From NCBI GenBank assembly GCA_002254845.1, contig NKPT01000009.1, positions 1 to 64,000 of the forward strand: DNA of 64,000 bases. Direction: 5' to 3'. Under the pieces are notes generated by a model. That model saw only the letters and a program-made list of their open reading frames with translations. It did not search any database and was not told where the DNA came from. Positions 8,689 to 26,547 of this stretch are shown here, piece by piece (position 1 is the stretch's first letter; every line of letters starts with the position of its first letter). Source of the stretch: Chloracidobacterium sp. CP2_5A. Lineage in GTDB: Bacteria > Acidobacteriota > Blastocatellia > Chloracidobacteriales > Chloracidobacteriaceae. The translations under genes were made by a program, and so were the position numbers.

Positions 8689-8727
8689 AAGCCGCGCCGC
8701 CCAGCCTTTCGGCGGCGCGATCGGCTT
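8689..8727. terminator. Hairpin between convergent genes
   Basis: CGCGCCGCC (8693-8701) pairs with GGCGGCGCG (8711-8719) over a nine-base loop, and AAGCC/GGCTT flanks extend it. It lies exactly between the stops of ilvE and the convergent membrane-protein gene, so it could terminate both. No clear U run follows on either strand. Confidence 0.5.
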
Positions 8728-10391
8728 TACAGTTCACCGCCGAGCTCATCCCCGCGCCGCCGGAAGCCGTAGGCCAGCAGCCCGCCGCCGACCGCGCCGG
8801 CGGTCAGCGTCCCAAACAGCCACCAGCGAACGGAAATCGGCTGCCGCTCGCGCGGCTGGCGCGGCATCCAGACAACCCACGGCCGCCCGACGTAGAAAAC
8901 CTCGAAATTGAGCGCCCACAGGGGCGAGTCGTCCGCCCACTCCGGGGCGAGGCCAAACAAGCAGTAGGTGTTCGTGTCGTCGTAGGGTCCGGGCCGAAAC
9001 CAGCAGGCCAGGTCGCGCGCCGACGGATTCACTGGATCGACCAGTTCAAACGGTCGCGCCAACAGCGCGCTTTCCCGAAAGTAAAACCCCGGATCGGTCG
9101 CCCAAAAGTGCGGCGTCAAGCACCGCTCTAGAAAGAACCGCTGGTGGTCAAGGCTCAGACCCAGCGCCTGGACGCTCAGTCCCGCCGTCACAACGACAAC
9201 GGCGGCCCAGCGCATCAACGCGCGCTGCGGCAGGAAGGCGAACGTCAGCGACCACAGCGGCAGAATCGGCAACAGGTAGCGCGGCCCCCAGCACCAGTCG
9301 CCGCCGTAAAACGAAATGCATCCCAGAAAAGCGACCAGCGCGACCGACGCCGCCAGCGTCATCCGCGCCACCATCGGCGCTTCAGCGCGCAACCCGGCGT
9401 AGCCGAAGAGGGCGAGCGCAATCGGCGGGCTATACCACAAAACGCCCTTGCCGGGGCTGATGAGCAGTCCTGGTATGCCGTAGAGCGGATTGCCCCAGAA
9501 GGACGGATGGCCTGGAATGTCAAACTTGCCGGTGTTGAGCGGGTGCCCAAAGCGCAGCGCGTTGTAAAGGCCGAACACGATTAGCCCGACGCCGCAGGCG
9601 ACGCTAAACGCCGCGACGCGTTGCAGCGACGCCCGCCCGGTCGCCGTTTTCCCAAACGCCGTCCAGAGCTGCGCCAGCCAAGGGCGCAAGTCGCTGATCA
9701 GCGGCGGCCACGTCACGCTCACGCGCGAACACATCAGCGCCAGAAACGGCCAGAGCAACGCCAGATGCTCTACGAAGTTCACCAACCAGCCAGCGCAGAG
9801 TCCGCCGGCGACGGCGTAATCGACCGACTGCCGCCGGGCGCTGCGGTAGGCGCACCACGCCGCGCACAAGACGAAAAACGCCTGCTGCGCGTTGTCAAAC
9901 GTTGTCGTCGCTCCAATAAAAGTCAGCGTGGCGAAGGCGTTGACAAGCGTCCAGAGCGCGGCCCGCCCGGCTGTCACGCCCAAATCCAGCAGGAAGAAAA
10001 ACAGAACGACGGCCAGCCCGGCCGCGACCAAGGCGGACGCGAGCGAGAACAAAAACCGCTGGCGCTCGCCCTTCCAGTCGTCGCCGAGCTGGCCCAGCGC
10101 CACCAGCGGCGCGCCCAGCGCTGACGCCGCCACGCCGTAGTGACTGTAAAGCCGTCCGTCGCGCCCGCGCACGCCAATCCAGGTCAGCATCGGATCGCGC
10201 AGGCTGGGCTTCCCAACTTCGACAAGGCTGCGCGCCACTTCAAAGCGGCACTGCCCGTCAATGATGTCTATGCGGCCGGGACTTGTCAGCACATACACGG
10301 CGCCGACCAGCAAAAACAGTCCCGTCGCAATCCAGAGCGAACAAGCTTTCACAAAGCGTTGACGAAGGAGACAACGAAATTGGCGTTGCAT
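8727..10391 (-). CDS. Polytopic membrane protein, GT-C glycosyltransferase-like
   Basis: 554 residues from the ATG at 10391 with about ten predicted transmembrane stretches (for example LWIATGLFLLVGAVYVL near the start, VAAGLAVVLFFFLLDLG, LIVFGLYNALRFG). The first periplasmic loop after helix 1 carries acidic residues (GRIDIIDGQ), and long aromatic-rich loops such as SFYGGDWCWGPRYLLP resemble mannosyl/arabinosyltransferases that use polyprenyl-phosphate sugars. The last helix ends in a short basic cytoplasmic tail. The frame is open upstream to 10544; an alternative ATG at 10424 would overlap the start of the divergent gene by two bases. Neither start has a clear ribosome site. Donor and acceptor unknown. 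Confidence 0.6.
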   Translation of the reverse strand: MQRQFRCLLRQRFVKACSLWIATGLFLLVGAVYVLTSPGRIDIIDGQCRFEVARSLVEVGKPSLRDPMLTWIGVRGRDGRLYSHYGVAASALGAPLVALGQLGDDWKGERQRFLFSLASALVAAGLAVVLFFFLLDLGVTAGRAALWTLVNAFATLTFIGATTTFDNAQQAFFVLCAAWCAYRSARRQSVDYAVAGGLCAGWLVNFVEHLALLWPFLALMCSRVSVTWPPLISDLRPWLAQLWTAFGKTATGRASLQRVAAFSVACGVGLIVFGLYNALRFGHPLNTGKFDIPGHPSFWGNPLYGIPGLLISPGKGVLWYSPPIALALFGYAGLRAEAPMVARMTLAASVALVAFLGCISFYGGDWCWGPRYLLPILPLWSLTFAFLPQRALMRWAAVVVVTAGLSVQALGLSLDHQRFFLERCLTPHFWATDPGFYFRESALLARPFELVDPVNPSARDLACWFRPGPYDDTNTYCLFGLAPEWADDSPLWALNFEVFYVGRPWVVWMPRQPRERQPISVRWWLFGTLTAGAVGGGLLAYGFRRRGDELGGEL

Positions 10392-10422
10392 CAGCGAGCT
10401 GGGCGCAAGTATATGCAAGCCC

Positions 10423-11973
10423 ATGAGGTTTGCCCATGTTTGCTTTCGCGCGCTTCGGCCGTTGGGGACGCGCCCGGCCGTGGCCGCTGGCTGCGCGCTG
10501 GCCGCGACGCTGCCCCTCCTGACGACGCCCTTCCCGCCGACCACCGACCTGCCGCAACACGTCGCCCAGGTCCGGCTCTGGCTTGAAATCCTTCAGGAAA
10601 CGCCGCAACCGAACGGCGTCGCCTATGTCGTGCAGTGGTGGACGCCCTACAGCCTGGCCTATCTGGTCATGGGGGCGCTGTGGCAGGCGCTGCCGCCGGC
10701 GCGCGTCGGGCAAGCCATGCTGCTGACGCTAGCGCTGGCCTGGACGCTGACGATCCACTGGATCGCCGCCCGCCGCGGGCGATCGGCCGCCGCCGCCGCG
10801 CTGGCGACGACCCTGTTTTTCAACCACGCGCTCTACTGGGGCTTTATGAGCTTTATGACCGGCTTTCCGTTGTTTTTGGCGTGGGCGCATGTGACGACGA
10901 CCGACGCGCCGCCGACGCGCCGGCGGCGGGCGCTGCTGGCCGGGCTGGCGGCGGCGCTCTACGCCGCGCACGCGCTGTGGTTCGCGCTGGCGCTGCTTTG
11001 GCTCGGCGCGGCGGGCGCGACGCGGCGGCGGCCGTGGCGGGCGCTCCTTGCCGAAGGCCTCTGGCTGTCGCCGCTCGCGGTCTTGGCCGCCGCGATGTAC
11101 GCCGGGATCGGCAGCGCCACCGCGCTCGTCTCGCACAAGACCGTCTGGACCGACCCGGCGGGACTCCGGCTATTGACCGGCTGGCTGCCGCGGGCGGTCT
11201 ATGGCGGCCTGTGCGGGCCGCTTGAGCCGCTGACGCTAACCATCCTTGGCGGCTGGCTATCCGCCGGCTTGATCAGGCACTGGGGACGGATACGGACGGC
11301 GACCGATCCGACCCTGCTTCTAGCGGGCGGCCTGTGTCTGGCGGCGGGGCTGCTGTTGCCGTATCAGTATCAATACACGATCGCTTTCGCCGAGCGCTGG
11401 ATGCCCGTCGCCGCCGTTTTGCTGCTGCTCGGCGCGCCGGCCCTGGATATGTCGGCCCCGGGCGGCGCGGAGGACGCCTGCGCAGGAGCGCTGCTGCGGG
11501 CGGGCGCGGCGCTCCTGTGCGTCGCGTTTTGCCTGTGGACAGCCGGCGTCTGGCGCGCGTTTGCCCGCGAGCATGTGTCCAGCTTGGAAGCGGCGCTGTC
11601 CGCGCTGCCGCCGCGCCCGCGCGTGGTTGGCCTCGATTTCGTCAAGGAAGTCCCCGGCTTTCGGGGTCGGCCGCTGATGCAGACGCCCGCCTACGCGCAG
11701 GTGACGCGGGGGGGCGGCTACAGCTTGTCGTTTGCGAAATTCCCGCAGAGCTTCGTTCGGTACGAAACCGATACCGTCGCGCGGTGGACGGACGGACTGG
11801 AGTGGTCGCCGGAGTCTTTGACGGAAACCGATCTGAACTACTTTGACTTTGTGCTGGCGGTCGGCGACCGCTGGGCGCACGAGCGGCTGCAAGCCAAGTT
11901 TCCGCAGCGGTTGCGCCGCCTGACCGACGCGAACCAGCCCTGGCGGCTGTACCGCATCCGTCCCGCGGAATGA
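10423..11973 (+). CDS. Polytopic membrane protein, GT-C-like
   Basis: 516 residues, about ten to twelve hydrophobic helices (VAAGCALAATLPLLTTP, AMLLTLALAWTLTIHW, ALLAGLAAALYAAHALWFAL and others). After the first helix comes PPTTDLPQHVAQ, an acidic loop placed like the catalytic Asp loop of GT-C glycosyltransferases. The C-terminal 100 residues are soluble (VVGLDFVKEVPGF, YDFVLAVGDR) and probably periplasmic. It starts head-to-head with another GT-C-like protein, 31 bases or less apart, so the two may share one promoter region and act on the same envelope polymer. No specific family recognised; function inferred only from topology. Confidence 0.6.
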   Translation: MRFAHVCFRALRPLGTRPAVAAGCALAATLPLLTTPFPPTTDLPQHVAQVRLWLEILQETPQPNGVAYVVQWWTPYSLAYLVMGALWQALPPARVGQAMLLTLALAWTLTIHWIAARRGRSAAAAALATTLFFNHALYWGFMSFMTGFPLFLAWAHVTTTDAPPTRRRRALLAGLAAALYAAHALWFALALLWLGAAGATRRRPWRALLAEGLWLSPLAVLAAAMYAGIGSATALVSHKTVWTDPAGLRLLTGWLPRAVYGGLCGPLEPLTLTILGGWLSAGLIRHWGRIRTATDPTLLLAGGLCLAAGLLLPYQYQYTIAFAERWMPVAAVLLLLGAPALDMSAPGGAEDACAGALLRAGAALLCVAFCLWTAGVWRAFAREHVSSLEAALSALPPRPRVVGLDFVKEVPGFRGRPLMQTPAYAQVTRGGGYSLSFAKFPQSFVRYETDTVARWTDGLEWSPESLTETDLNYFDFVLAVGDRWAHERLQAKFPQRLRRLTDANQPWRLYRIRPAE

Positions 11974-11994: not shown

Positions 11995-12028
11995 GATTAC
12001 TCGCGCTGCTCGATTACTCGTACTGCTC
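11995..12028. repeat. 17-bp tandem duplication across a stop codon
   Basis: Two 17-base units (11995-12011 and 12012-12028) differ only at two central bases (cg versus ta). On the minus strand the upstream unit contains the last codons and TAA of the gene ending at 12014; the second unit repeats the same codons and TAA in the 3' flank. Confidence 0.8.
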
Positions 12029-12868
12029 GCGGCGACCGGGCGACGACTGGAAAGACTCCGGATAGTTGGCGCTCTCAATCAAGTTCAGACCCGACAGCGC
12101 CGGCGCGGACTCTTCCAGAATCTGCTTCGTGATTTCGATGTTGGCGAGCAGCTCGCCAAAATCCAGATCGGAGGCGACCGACCCATCCAGCGCCGTCATT
12201 GTCATGATGTGGTCGTTGATGAGGCTAAAGCGGTTCTCGATAGCCTGGAGCTGCGCTTCCACTCGGCTCACGCTGCGCTCGATTTCGCCAAAGGCCTTCA
12301 TCCGGCGCCGAAGCACGTCCAGGTTATGCTCAAGCAGCGGGCGAGTCGCGGCGTCGGCAGTCGCCAGTTGGCGCTCCGCCTGAGCAATTTGATTCTGAAT
12401 CGCCGTCCGGTTGATAGAGCGCAAGTGCGTTTTGCGCCGTCGGTAAACATCGAGCAGGTCAACAAACTGCTCCCACATGGTGTCGAGGCACTGGATGGAT
12501 TCCGGCAATCTGTCAAGCTTGGTGAATTTTAGGTAGTTTTCGTAAATCTTGCTTTTCTGGAAGCGCAAATACTCGACCATTTCGCGGTCGCGCGGCTCGA
12601 AGGCGCGAATCAGCTCCTCGCGCTGGCGGCGGCGCAAGATTTGACGCTGCCGCGCCGCTCGCCGCTCGACTAAGCGCCGGTAGGCCGTCATGGCCGGCAC
12701 GACGACTAGGTAGGCGGCTTCCAGCGCGGCCCCGGCCGCGAGCGGCGTCCAGTCCTGCGTGTAGGCCGCCGCCGACAAAAACAGTACCATCGTCCAGATG
12801 TTGTATGGCTCGCCGGCGGCTTCCTTGACGTAGTTGATTTTCGGGGTAATGGAGGTCAAAACACTCAT
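12014..12868 (-). CDS. Membrane-anchored coiled-coil protein of unknown function
   Basis: 284 residues from the ATG at 12868 (a TTG three codons earlier is possible). Residues about 20-60 hold two short hydrophobic segments (IWTMVLFLSAAAYT, LAAGAALEAAYLVVVPAM), after which a basic stretch (RRLVERRAARQRQILRRR) keeps the rest in the cytoplasm. Residues 85-230 are rich in heptad-like Leu/Ile with many charged residues, a probable coiled coil, including FGEIERSVSRVEAQLQAIENR. The C-terminus is acidic and polar. It is divergent to the SpoIIE-like protein and convergent with the GT-C-like gene. I do not recognise a family. Confidence 0.6.
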   Translation of the reverse strand: MSVLTSITPKINYVKEAAGEPYNIWTMVLFLSAAAYTQDWTPLAAGAALEAAYLVVVPAMTAYRRLVERRAARQRQILRRRQREELIRAFEPRDREMVEYLRFQKSKIYENYLKFTKLDRLPESIQCLDTMWEQFVDLLDVYRRRKTHLRSINRTAIQNQIAQAERQLATADAATRPLLEHNLDVLRRRMKAFGEIERSVSRVEAQLQAIENRFSLINDHIMTMTALDGSVASDLDFGELLANIEITKQILEESAPALSGLNLIESANYPESFQSSPGRREQYE

Positions 12869-12995
12869 GGCGCTCAACTCAAGTGCAGCCTAGCGAGTCG
12901 CTCGGTGGGAGTCTGGCAAAGTGTCGCACCATCGTAGTGGCATTTCAAGGCGTTCTCACACGACGAATCGCGCGGTTTTCAGAGGCTGCGCTGGT

Positions 12996-13077: not shown

Positions 13078-15525
13078 ATGATCGCTCCCTTTGACCAGTC
13101 GCTTTCCTCCACGAAAAGAAAAAGCCAAGCGCTGGTCTGGACCGGCTGGTCCGTGCTGTTGTCGCTGACGATATTCGCGCTGGGTAGCGGCCAGGCGTAC
13201 TCGCCGCCCATCGCTCGCCTGCGGGAGCGCGAGGCGCGAGCGCGAGCGGAGGAATTACTGAAGCGATTGCGACCGGCGAGCCTAGCGGAGCGGTCGCTGT
13301 CCGATTATCGCGTCGCGCAGCAATGCCAGCGCGATCAAGCTGATCAAGCGCGTTGGGAATTCGCCTTCCTCGCCCCTGATGATAGCCATCTCTATCGCCT
13401 GACATTGAGCCGGCGCGGCGACTTCCGCGCCTTCGCGCTTTATCGGCGGACGCCATTGACCGAGGCTGAGCCGCCCCTGGAAAGCGCGACCTTGCGCGCC
13501 TTGGTTGAAGCTTGGCGCGACTTCCTCGCGGCTGAGGCGAAGATTGCGCCGCCACTTGCGGATGAAGCGCCGGCGGTTGCCCGCGAAAGCCCCCTGCCGG
13601 GCCACGCCCGCGATGTGATTCGCCGCTGGAAAACCAATGACGAGACGTGGCCCTTTGTGGAGATCGCCTTTGAGGGGCAAGCCTTGCAGTCGCTGACGCT
13701 CGCTCAAGAGCCGCCGCCGCGCGAGTCGCCGCTGGACGGCGCGGCGCAGGCGATTACGGTCTTGCTGCTCGCGATCGCGCTCTGGCTGCCATGGCTCGTC
13801 CTGTTTATCCGGGGCGCGTTACGGCGCGAAATGGGGTCGCTCACGGTCTTGGTTGTGAGCGGCGCCCTGGCGGCGTGCCTGGCGATCTGGCTGCTCCTGC
13901 TTTTGGGATTCGCGCTACTGGCGCCGTTTGCTTGGGGCAATCCGTCCATCTCCGAAGTCGAGTTTGCCAGCCTGCCCGATGTCACGTACCGGCTAAGCGT
14001 CTTCCTCCTGACGCTTGCGACGACTGGCGTCGCGTCGCTAGCGATTGCTGGACTCGGGCTGGTGTCGCTGGCGGTGACGGAGTCATACGACTGGAAGCGC
14101 CAGCGCCAACTGCTGGGCGATATTTATCGCCTCTCGCGCCGGAAGCACTGGCCGCCGCCCCACGTGGCGCGACTGTACGGGGGCGCGTTCGCGCTGGCGC
14201 TATGGATTTTGGCGATTGAGACCGGCGTCGCGGGCCAGTCCGGGCACCCCGCGCTGCCTTGGCATGAGTTTTCGGCTTGGTCGCAGTCGTTGGCGCTTGG
14301 GCATCTGCCGGGGTGGAAAATCTGGGGCGAGTGCTTCTGCGGCCTCTGGCTGGTGACCGTCTGGCTGACGCCAATGCTGGCTTTTGCCCGTAACCGGCTC
14401 TCGGATCGCTCGGCGGCCCTCGCTGTGGGATGTCTCCTCGGACTGGCGGGCTTTCCTTTCGTCGCGCAGTCCTGGGCGGCGGCGGCGGGTTACGCGCTCC
14501 TCGTCGCCGCGCTCCTGTGGACGCTCCTACGCTATGGCTGGCTGGCGGTCGTTTTTGCGTATCTCCTCATTGGCGGCTTCTTCCCGCTGCTTTGGTCGTT
14601 GCGCTTTCCAGGCGGCTTTGAGCCGGACTTTCTGGCCGGCGGCATCGTGGCGGCGCTGCCGATGGCGCTGGCCTGGCGATATCGCCAACCGCCGCGCCAA
14701 GGGCGAAACGAAGCCTTCGATTTGGCCCCAAGCTACGTCCGCAATCGGTTGCGGCTTGAGCGGTGGCGCGAGGAGCGAGACGTGCGGTGGCTCATTCACG
14801 GCAATCTGCTCCCGCCTTCCGGCTTTCGGGATGAGCGCCGGCGACTGGTCGCCGAATACGCCCACTTGCCCGAACAGGGGCGCGAGTGGTTTGTCGCGCT
14901 GCCGCTCGACGATGAGCGGATCGGCGTCGCGATTGGCGAAGTGAGCGGGCAAGAGTTGCAGGCCTCGCTGCTGATGGCGACCGTGCTGGCGGCTATCAAG
15001 TCAAAGGCGGCGCGCTATGCGGATTGTCCGGCGCGGGTCGTTGAGCGGCTCAATGACTTCCTATCGCCCCGCCTCCGCGAGGTTGATTCGGAAGTACGCC
15101 TCGTTTATGGCGTTGCCGATTTTCGCTCCGGCGAATTCGCCTTCTGCAACGCGGGTTATGTCGCGCCGATCGCTCTGCCGGCGGCGGAGGCGTCATCGCC
15201 CATCTCGCTCAGCCAAGCGGTCAATCCGCCGCTGGACGGGCTAACCGACCTGCGGTTCGCTGCCCAGACCGTCCGCTTGGCGCGCGGCAGCCGCTTGATT
15301 CTTATGAGCGATTGGGTGGGCGAGTTATGCGAGCTAGCTCCGGACGCCGAGGCTCTGCTGAAAAAAAACGCCCAACTGCTGGCCGCCTTCGGGTCGCTTC
15401 CAGCGCAGGAGCTTCCAGGCGCCATCATCCGGGAGGGGCGCGAGCGACTCCGGCAGCAGCTTGCCGATCCGTCAGCGAAGACAATGCCGGATGTTGAAAT
15501 GACGGTCATCTGCATCGAGTTTTGA
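13078..15525 (+). CDS. Large membrane protein with SpoIIE/PP2C-type phosphatase-like domain
   Basis: 815 residues. After helix 1 (about 18-37) comes an extracytoplasmic domain of about 170 residues, then a bundle of roughly eight to ten helices (220-540), then a cytoplasmic SpoIIE-like domain (about 570-815). The fold is recognisable from GVAIGEVSGQELQASLLMA, FAFCNAGYVAP and the terminal TVICIEF strand. Three metal or active positions depart from the family: the GD motif is GE (E621), the late DG motif is DW (D745-W746), and the terminal acidic pair is D805-V-E807. Active PP2C enzymes need these aspartates for two metals, so activity may be weak, different or lost. A TTG at 13033 could add 15 residues, but the ATG is preferred. 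A radical SAM gene follows 124 bases downstream. Confidence 0.75.
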   Translation: MIAPFDQSLSSTKRKSQALVWTGWSVLLSLTIFALGSGQAYSPPIARLREREARARAEELLKRLRPASLAERSLSDYRVAQQCQRDQADQARWEFAFLAPDDSHLYRLTLSRRGDFRAFALYRRTPLTEAEPPLESATLRALVEAWRDFLAAEAKIAPPLADEAPAVARESPLPGHARDVIRRWKTNDETWPFVEIAFEGQALQSLTLAQEPPPRESPLDGAAQAITVLLLAIALWLPWLVLFIRGALRREMGSLTVLVVSGALAACLAIWLLLLLGFALLAPFAWGNPSISEVEFASLPDVTYRLSVFLLTLATTGVASLAIAGLGLVSLAVTESYDWKRQRQLLGDIYRLSRRKHWPPPHVARLYGGAFALALWILAIETGVAGQSGHPALPWHEFSAWSQSLALGHLPGWKIWGECFCGLWLVTVWLTPMLAFARNRLSDRSAALAVGCLLGLAGFPFVAQSWAAAAGYALLVAALLWTLLRYGWLAVVFAYLLIGGFFPLLWSLRFPGGFEPDFLAGGIVAALPMALAWRYRQPPRQGRNEAFDLAPSYVRNRLRLERWREERDVRWLIHGNLLPPSGFRDERRRLVAEYAHLPEQGREWFVALPLDDERIGVAIGEVSGQELQASLLMATVLAAIKSKAARYADCPARVVERLNDFLSPRLREVDSEVRLVYGVADFRSGEFAFCNAGYVAPIALPAAEASSPISLSQAVNPPLDGLTDLRFAAQTVRLARGSRLILMSDWVGELCELAPDAEALLKKNAQLLAAFGSLPAQELPGAIIREGRERLRQQLADPSAKTMPDVEMTVICIEF

Positions 15526-15649: not shown

Positions 15650-16819
<1,170 letters not shown>

Positions 16820-24580: not shown

Positions 24581-24744
24581 CACTCGCTCAACCTCGCGTT
24601 GAAGATGACGAACAGCGTTTGACGGAAGCTGAAAAGCAGCGTCATTCTTAGCGCTTAGCGCGCCGATTTCAATCCATATTTTCAAGTTGGGAAACGCGCG
24701 CTCACGGCTGACGGCTCACCGCCCGCTCGCTTTTGGAGGCGCCC

Positions 24745-26547
24745 ATGCAACCTGGCGCAATGCTTGGCCCGTACACCCTAGTCCGACTCTTAGGGCGCGG
24801 CGCTTTTGGTCAGGTATGGCTGGCCGAGCGGCGCACAGCGTTGGCCGTCACCCGCGTGGCGCTCAAAGCGCCCATCGCCGACAACGTTGACCTTGACGCC
24901 ATCCGCAAGGAAGCCGCCGTATGGGCGGAAGCCAGCGGGCACCCCAACGTCCTGCCGATTATCGAAGCCGATATCTACGATGGGCAGGTTGTCATCGTGA
25001 GCGAATACGCCCCGGACGGCTCGCTGGCGGAATGGATAGCGCGCCGGGGCGGGCGCGTAGCGCTGCCAGAGGCGGCCAGAATGCTCGACGGCGTTTTGGC
25101 CGGGCTTGAGCATCTTCATAACCGGCGCATTGTGCACCGCGACCTCAAGCCGGCGAACATTCTGCTCCAGGGCGATACGCCGCGCCTGGCCGACTTTGGC
25201 ATTGCGCGCGTCGCGCGCGCCACCTCGCATACGGGCCTCATCGCTGGGACGCCCGCCTACATGCCGCCCGAAGCTTTTGACGGCAGCCGCACGGAGCAGG
25301 GCGATCTGTGGGCGGCCGGGGTGATTTTTCAGCAACTGCTCACCGGCGGATTGCCGTTTCCGCAGCAAGACCTGACGACGCTCATGGGGGCGATCGTGAA
25401 CCGCGACCCCATGCCGCTCCCGGCGACGCTGCCGGCGGCCGTCCATCAGTTTGTCGCGACGGCGCTGTGTAAGAACCCGGCGCAGCGGTTTCAGACGGCG
25501 ACGGCGATGCGGCAAGCGCTGGCGCAAGCGACGGCCCGGCCGCCGCAGCCGGCGGCGGGCTGGACTACGGAGGGCGGGCCTGGGCCGGCGACGGATCGGC
25601 AGGCGGCGGCTTTCGCGTCCGCGCCGACGACTTGGCAGCCGCCGACTGGGCGGCCGGCGAGCGGCGCGTCGCTCATGGCAACGGCCGCTACGCTGCCGTT
25701 GCCGCCATCCCGCGCCGCCGGCCCGTCGCCAGCTTTGGCTGCCGAGCGGCGCAAACAAGGCTGGTGGTGGGTAGCCGCAGGCGCGGCCGTGACGCTCCTG
25801 CTGGGCGCGACACTGTTTCTGGCGCTGCTGACGTACTTCCACGGGCGGGCTTTTCAGCCCGCCGCCCCGGCCCCGCTCGCGCCCGTCGCCGATGCGCCCG
25901 TCGCCGATGCGCCCGCGCCAGTCGCGCCGCCGGCGGAGCCATCCGCGGAAGAAGCGCCGCCCGCGCCGGAATCGCTCGCGCCCGGCTCCGAGGGCGTGTA
26001 TGTCATCGGCTTTTCCTCTAAGACCCTGGAAGCCGCCGAGGCGAAGCGCGCCGACTATGCCAAGGCCGGCTTCCCATCCTTTGTGGTGAAGACGGATGAG
26101 TGGACGAACTTCGATCCCGGCTTTTACATTGTGGCGCTGGGCATTTACGCCACCGAAGCCGACGCCAAGGTCGTCGTGGCGCGCATCCGGGAAAAGGGAC
26201 TGAGCACTTACGCCAAGCCGTCGGGGCCGCCGCGTCAGTCGCCGGAAACGCCCATCAATCCAGAGGATGTCCCCGGCGATTTCCCGGAAGCCTCGCTGCG
26301 CGACCTGACGGAGGATGACCTCGCGGATCTGTCGCTCGAAGAGCTGCGCCTTATGCGCAATGAAATCCTGGCGCGACATGGCTATCGCTTCGCCGACCCA
26401 GGGCTGGCCGAGCATTTTAAGGCTCAGCCGTGGTACCATCCGACCGAAAACAGCGCGAGCGATAAGCTGACGCCGGTTGAGAAACGAAACATCGAGCGCA
26501 TTCGCCGGGCCGAAAAGGACGCCGAAAGCAAACCAAAAGCAAATTAG
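24745..26547 (+). CDS. Membrane Ser/Thr protein kinase with SPOR-like and YARHG-like tail
   Basis: 600 residues. A Hanks-type kinase domain fills 8-260: ATP lysine K41 in VALKAP, catalytic D133 in HRDLKPAN, D150 in ADFGIAR, and APE-like GTPAYMPPEA. A Pro/Ala linker leads to one transmembrane helix (about 340-366). Outside the membrane come a SPOR-like region (about 415-495: VYVIGFSSKTLEAAEAKRA, FYIVALGIYATEADAK) and a YARHG-type domain (about 515-585: LSLEELRLMRNEILARHGY, AQPWYHPT). SPOR domains bind denuded peptidoglycan, so the kinase may sense cell-wall state. GGAGG at 24735-24739 fits the ATG at 24745. Divergent from the M28 operon. Confidence 0.88.
   Translation: MQPGAMLGPYTLVRLLGRGAFGQVWLAERRTALAVTRVALKAPIADNVDLDAIRKEAAVWAEASGHPNVLPIIEADIYDGQVVIVSEYAPDGSLAEWIARRGGRVALPEAARMLDGVLAGLEHLHNRRIVHRDLKPANILLQGDTPRLADFGIARVARATSHTGLIAGTPAYMPPEAFDGSRTEQGDLWAAGVIFQQLLTGGLPFPQQDLTTLMGAIVNRDPMPLPATLPAAVHQFVATALCKNPAQRFQTATAMRQALAQATARPPQPAAGWTTEGGPGPATDRQAAAFASAPTTWQPPTGRPASGASLMATAATLPLPPSRAAGPSPALAAERRKQGWWWVAAGAAVTLLLGATLFLALLTYFHGRAFQPAAPAPLAPVADAPVADAPAPVAPPAEPSAEEAPPAPESLAPGSEGVYVIGFSSKTLEAAEAKRADYAKAGFPSFVVKTDEWTNFDPGFYIVALGIYATEADAKVVVARIREKGLSTYAKPSGPPRQSPETPINPEDVPGDFPEASLRDLTEDDLADLSLEELRLMRNEILARHGYRFADPGLAEHFKAQPWYHPTENSASDKLTPVEKRNIERIRRAEKDAESKPKAN

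Follow-up and report, generated by a model that had tools for sequence, protein, structure and literature searches.

A clade-specific SpoIIE/RsbU-type PP2C protein with a glutamate-substituted active site in the Chloracidobacterium family: a candidate membrane-anchored pseudophosphatase-like switch

The window analysed here, a stretch of 64,000 nucleotides from Chloracidobacterium sp. CP2_5A, carries on its forward strand at positions 13078–15525 a gene for a membrane-anchored SpoIIE/RsbU-type PP2C protein of 815 amino acids, in which the active site is substituted with glutamate. The substituted residues are invariant among the full-length orthologues, which form a single clade and are under purifying selection. 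The protein is most readily understood as a membrane-anchored pseudophosphatase-like switch whose pocket probably still holds a metal ion, a reading to which a probability of about 0.55 is assigned.

Results

The frame at 13078–15525 is uninterrupted, and the ATG at 13078 is consistent with the start of most orthologues. A Pfam search with the whole protein showed that SpoIIE (PF07228) was the sole match above the curated cut-off (residues 611–795; 68 bits against a cut-off of 25), and in a profile search across the host genome (3.41 Mb in 385 contigs) the protein scored 72.1 bits, which places it in the PF07228 family. This match alone would lead to the annotation of the protein as a phosphatase. 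The linker helix and the PP2C domain occupy residues 546–815 (14713–15522, forward strand, as are all features of the gene given below). The AlphaFold2 model of the domain, built from an alignment (A3) of 46 sequences (the window protein and 45 of the 54 references), had a mean pLDDT of 92.2 and a pTM of 0.89. The top solved match of the model was Rv1364c (3ke6; Z 23.8, rmsd 2.6, 218 residues aligned), and SiaA (6k4e; Z 23.1, rmsd 3.0, 237 aligned), Pseudomonas aeruginosa RssB (3eq2; Z 22.5, rmsd 2.8, 238 aligned) and SpoIIE (5ucg; Z 21.6, rmsd 2.7, 210 aligned) also matched. An earlier, sequence-only reading of this DNA had claimed a PP2C-type core and named alignment to the SpoIIE profile as the check; the core was borne out by that alignment as well as by the domain model and the solved-structure matches. 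The model has the PP2C beta-sandwich fold with acids at or beside strand ends (model residues 58, 76, 200 and 262), a helix ahead of the domain and further helices where the switch would lie. E603 is predicted to start a strand, E621 to lie near the end of one, D745 to come just after one and E807 to stand directly before the last, so that in the model these four residues sit where PP2C ligands are expected.

In SpoIIE, one Mn ion is described as being held by D628, D746 and D795, and a putative second metal site, M2, as involving D610, D628 and G629 (PMC3517971, PMC5468089). The register of the corresponding motifs in the window protein was checked by HMM-based alignment, MAFFT and structural alignment ranges. 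The results showed that motif GGD[FY][YF]D of the canonical paralogues aligns with G601-R602-E603-W604-F605, indicating that the equivalent of the M2 ligand D610 is also Glu; this residue, E603 (14884–14886), is Glu in 9/9 orthologues and Asp in 57/57 other domains in which the column is filled. Motif GDVSG corresponds to G620-E621-V-S-G, with E621 (14938–14940) replacing the bridging ligand D628 (Glu in 9/9, Asp in 58/58 filled others), and motif [ST]DG to S-D745-W746 (D745-W746 at 15310–15315), in which the SpoIIE ligand D746 is kept and the next Gly is changed to Trp (D-W in 9/9, D-G in 58/58 filled others). The last motif, DD[IM]T, is V806-E807-M-T (V806-E807 at 15493–15498). Here the M1 ligand D795 is lost, the first place being V, V, V, T, T, A, V, M and I across the nine orthologues, and the adjacent acid is always Glu (9/9; D-D in 57/57 filled others). 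When the model is structurally aligned with SpoIIE 5ucg_A, its final residue, 815 (domain residue 270), falls on residue 804, which would put V806 on D795 and E807 one residue later if the final strand is ungapped.

The sequence-only reading had described replaced catalytic acids, and translation and alignments confirmed them: G620-E621 and D745-W746 are present where it had placed them, although it had overlooked the change to E603 in the first motif. It had also taken D805-V806-E807 as the final acidic group. The three residues do occur at these positions, but the canonical DD aligns to V806-E807, and residue 805 varies among the nine orthologues (D, E, K, E, E, N, S, gap and gap), all of which have E807; the last motif was consequently read as V-E. 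At the places of SpoIIE D610, D628, D746 and D795, where a competent PPM phosphatase has Asp, the protein has E603, E621, D745 and V806, so that one of four is kept, and the Gly that should follow the Asp of the DG motif is Trp in all nine orthologues. Loss of D795 leaves the M1 site one canonical ligand short. Judged by sequence, the protein is a PF07228 member of PP2C fold that departs from the canonical PPM pattern and has the signature of a PP2C pseudophosphatase, namely the fold with lost metal ligands (the D795 equivalent gone, two others changed to Glu).

When 58 relatives were searched, eight genomes other than the window's own had a full-length orthologue (six of the genus, two of the family). 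The nine orthologues therefore all belong to one family and cover 7/7 genus genomes and 2/3 other family members; family genome G009 gave short domain matches only and no full-length orthologue. Identity to the window protein ranged from 31 to 78%. Across 396 genomes of the phylum the score fell from 1024.6 bits (G007) to 112.1 bits (G264) on leaving the family, and a scan of wider genome contigs with six peptides of this one protein returned two loci, both already in the relatives set. Every one of the nine orthologues has E603, E621, D745, W746, E807 and T809. In a comparison of 69 distinct domain sequences, all nine orthologues read E, E, D, W, x, E at the six active-site columns; among the 60 non-orthologue domains, 54 had all six columns filled and every one of these read D-D-D-G-D-D, the other six being partial, canonical where filled and outside the 54/54. 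The non-orthologue domains came from one phylum only. They had been picked either for their resemblance to the orthologues or as PF07228 matches of the host genome, a choice that would have tilted the comparison set towards near variants. The uniform pattern in the orthologues, set against the canonical pattern in the others, indicates that the changes are not due to chance. Sequencing or assembly error was ruled out, since nine genomes agree in these residues.

In a tree of 63 domains (duplicate rows L014 and L050–L055 and partial rows L009, L030, L044 and L045 omitted), the nine orthologues made up one side of a branch with an SH-aLRT of 100, the deeper placement not being resolved by the tree. 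The orthologue stem measured 2.03 changes per column, against a median of 0.52 for end branches. Nei-Gojobori dN/dS in the PP2C region was 0.204, 0.199, 0.141, 0.116, 0.181 and 0.138 in six pairs, a seventh pair being saturated in dS, and was higher in the membrane part (0.20–0.53). Invariant columns numbered 60/270 in the PP2C part compared with 15/215 and 32/330 in the other parts. The long stem, the low dN/dS and the invariant columns point to a burst of change that gave way to strong constraint, the course expected when a new function arises. Taken together, the clade-wide invariance, the origin as one clade on a long stem and the purifying selection indicate that the active-site change is a remodelling fixed across the clade rather than decay, and the domain looks stably repurposed.

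Ahead of the PP2C domain, hydropathy predicts an N-terminal transmembrane helix at approximately residues 18–36 (13129–13185; positions 44–62 of the 841-codon open frame). The secondary structure of the model predicts a periplasmic alpha/beta domain at approximately residues 44–215 (13207–13722), and hydropathy and model helices a multi-helix membrane part at approximately residues 216–545 (13723–14712). Pfam returned nothing at E 10 for 181 amino acids of the periplasmic domain, and none of eight N-terminal pieces gave a Pfam match above the curated cut-off. Simple hydropathy of the nine orthologues gave one N-terminal segment and 8–11 more, one of which falls within the PP2C domain in two orthologues. 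The full-length model, which is of low confidence (mean pLDDT 64.7, membrane part poor), begins with an N-terminal helix and continues with an alpha/beta domain, predicted to contain two helix-and-strands units, and a membrane part made of helices. The ten membrane helices and the periplasmic domain of the sequence-only reading are plausible, but the helix count is not exact. Within the membrane part of the orthologues, residues 335–381 (14080–14220) include the invariant E335, D338, W339, D348, R351, R354 and E381; such charged and aromatic residues are unusual for plain anchors and may belong to a cytoplasmic loop or a signal path.

The layout itself is shared with canonical proteins. Alignment A2 comprises 11 canonical relatives, all full-length, drawn from the host genome, from the family and class, and from further families of the phylum. 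A profile-profile comparison of alignment A1 with A2 by hhalign extended over 748 columns (probability 100, E 5.9e-45), starting at the N-terminal helix and running across the membrane part into the PP2C domain. The protein accordingly has the layout of the membrane sensor PP2C proteins of Acidobacteriota (N-terminal helix, periplasmic domain, multi-helix part and C-terminal PP2C domain), although hydropathy is less uniform in the 11 canonical proteins, with 5–10 segments and only 5 in L096 and in L088, the latter from the own genome. The suggestion that this is an uncommon sensor form did not hold: since canonical relatives share it, the form is ordinary for the phylum, and it is the remodelled site that is unusual.

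The gene is preceded by a coiled-coil gene (12014–12877) and followed by a radical SAM gene (15650–16819), an arrangement kept in 5/7 genus genomes, the window included. At the other four orthologue loci (G003, G006, G007 and G008) the neighbours differ: thiolase, RlmN-like, histidine kinase, TPR and Fur genes were seen there and, by reading, genes for a glutamate-synthase-like and a TPR-like protein. The absence of the coiled-coil and radical SAM genes from these four loci implies that neither is a fixed partner, and both were dropped as candidate operon partners. The radical SAM protein encoded directly downstream is 91–96% identical in four other genus genomes, in which the PP2C protein is 58–78% identical. 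The coiled-coil-like protein (reverse strand), which has no Pfam match above the curated cut-off, is 88–90% identical in four other genus genomes. Further upstream, two membrane-like proteins are encoded in opposite directions by open reading frames that overlap at their 5' ends (8727–10544, reverse strand; 10423–11973, forward strand); neither has a Pfam match at 0.01, and four other genus genomes carry both, with one of the two standing at a contig edge in G002. A Hanks-type Ser/Thr kinase, recognised by reading of kinase motifs, is encoded at 24733–26547, near the PP2C gene though not next to it.

The host genome gave 19 matches to PF07228. Among the 18 others, 15 are SpoIIE-type domains with ordinary motifs and three (L017–L019) are weaker and look like other PP2C types. 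The genome also has six HATPase_c_2 matches, four of them over the cut-off, and four STAS proteins, suggesting that partner switching probably exists in this organism; presumably it is handled by the canonical paralogues. By coordinates, paralogue L003 on contig C52 adjoins a HATPase_c_2/STAS pair. No link of the HATPase_c_2 or STAS proteins of the genome to the PP2C gene at 13078–15525 was found.

Discussion

The results are consistent with a clade-specific gene in the Chloracidobacterium family that derives from a membrane PP2C sensor phosphatase and is under functional constraint. In the architecture proposed, an alpha-helical linker would connect the periplasmic alpha/beta domain and some ten membrane helices to a PP2C domain of SpoIIE/RsbU type in the cytoplasm, in which two M2-side Asp residues are Glu, the M1 ligand D795 is gone with an acid one residue later, and the Gly of the DG motif is Trp. 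We infer that the pocket most likely still holds a metal ion and that ordinary two-metal (Mn) phosphoserine hydrolysis is most likely lost or very weak. Outside signals may alter the state of the linker or dimer, and the domain may bind or release a phosphoprotein or a STAS-type partner.

SpoIIE/RsbU-type domains are reported to be switched via alpha-helical linkers and switch helices that place a metal-binding carbonyl (PMC5468089, PMC12143880). For PP2C, a review of PHLPP describes mutation of any metal-coordinating residue as enough to abolish activity (PMC13358185), and the pseudophosphatases PHLPP2 and TAB1 are reported to keep a single metal, at M2 (PMC12002173). Combined with the loss of D795, these accounts favour a pseudophosphatase-like switch, and the presence of 15 other, canonical SpoIIE-type domains in the genome was also counted in favour of this reading. 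The lack of a fixed partner gene among the neighbours counts against it. In addition, a mere binding module would not need to keep four acidic places acidic, a feature that fits an altered enzyme at least as well.

All four places carry an acid in 9/9 orthologues, with one acid shifted by a residue. This speaks for continued metal binding and makes an altered enzyme possible. The protein might then be a working PP2C-type hydrolase whose metal site has moved: the longer Glu side chains, with E807 standing in for D795, would hold the metals in an altered geometry or favour a different metal, and the enzyme would dephosphorylate a substrate of its own. On this view, the di-metal site would have been rebuilt from Asp to E-E-D-E, its last ligand now lying one residue further on, and a membrane sensor output shared across the family would have acquired a different metal choice or chemistry. 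The strong constraint on the PP2C domain and the complete, untruncated fold agree with such an enzyme, but one M1 ligand is shifted in register, the DG Gly is a bulky Trp, and the literature searches yielded no characterised active PP2C with this ligand set; we regard this alternative as less likely than the switch. The sequence-only reading had offered pseudophosphatase or changed metal use, and these are still the right pair of hypotheses, with the clade-wide invariance supporting a functional remodelled site and not simple loss.

A PP2C fold with a changed reaction, removing something other than a phosphomonoester in the manner of the deAMPylase SidD, is unlikely: the remodelled pocket is conserved in the clade and the structural matches include SidD (6rre_F, Z 16.2; function according to the entry title), but ordinary phosphatases match more strongly and neither the sequence nor the neighbourhood holds a pointer to a nucleotide substrate. 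A decaying former phosphatase, its domain without present function, would account for the lost canonical ligand but is so improbable, given intact frames, identical substitutions in 9/9 orthologues and a PP2C-region dN/dS of 0.12–0.20, that decay or a pseudogene was ruled out. Depending on which of the two leading readings proves right, the protein would be either a new pseudophosphatase switch of bacteria or an enzyme whose metal use is altered. In literature coverage that was mostly open-access and judged from titles and the beginnings of abstracts, no report of a glutamate-substituted SpoIIE-type domain was found.

Comparison with known systems

SpoIIE of Bacillus subtilis (5ucg, 5mqh) has a C-terminal PP2C domain of the same Pfam family, an alpha-helical switch region and, according to PMC5468089, ten membrane segments ahead of the domain. 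However, D610, D628 and D795 of SpoIIE are replaced in the window protein, identity in the structural alignment is 16%, and SpoIIE has a central regulatory domain where the window protein has a periplasmic one; the shared Pfam name says nothing about sporulation for the latter. The canonical membrane PP2C proteins of Acidobacteriota (L088–L098) have the same layout and length (open frames of 836–935 codons), but all 11 keep GGD, GD, DG and DD, the invariant positions of A2 including D632, D635, D650, D778, G779, D830 and D831 (A2 alignment numbering). The RsbU domain of Rv1364c (3ke6) is the best match among solved proteins in both sequence and structure; unlike the window protein, it has canonical ligands in the aligned part (GGD, GD) and belongs to a different multi-domain protein.

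Among proteins with altered sites, metazoan PHLPP2 and TAB1 likewise have changed metal ligands, with one metal left at M2 as reported in PMC12002173, and TAB1 (2pop_A) matches the domain model with Z 17.0 over 217 residues; their substitutions are nevertheless different (for example C799 in PHLPP2), and they are eukaryotic and of unrelated layout. By analogy, the closest functional precedent for a pseudophosphatase-like switch is Escherichia coli RssB, a SpoIIE-class PP2C fold with lost catalytic ligands (8t85; Z 18.0 over 175 residues), which is described in PMC7226468 as an adaptor without active-site residues or phosphatase activity whose role is protein binding. RssB is fused to a receiver domain, and its PP2C part is reported to be C-terminally truncated (PMC12143880), whereas the window protein is membrane-bound and has a full-length domain with acids at four places. 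The known departures compared here (RssB, TAB1 and PHLPP2) are losses of various kinds, and the ligand set is intact in all 54 of the other domains that have the six columns filled; the invariant exchange of Asp for Glu, with acidity kept, is a natural test of how far a PP2C metal site can change.
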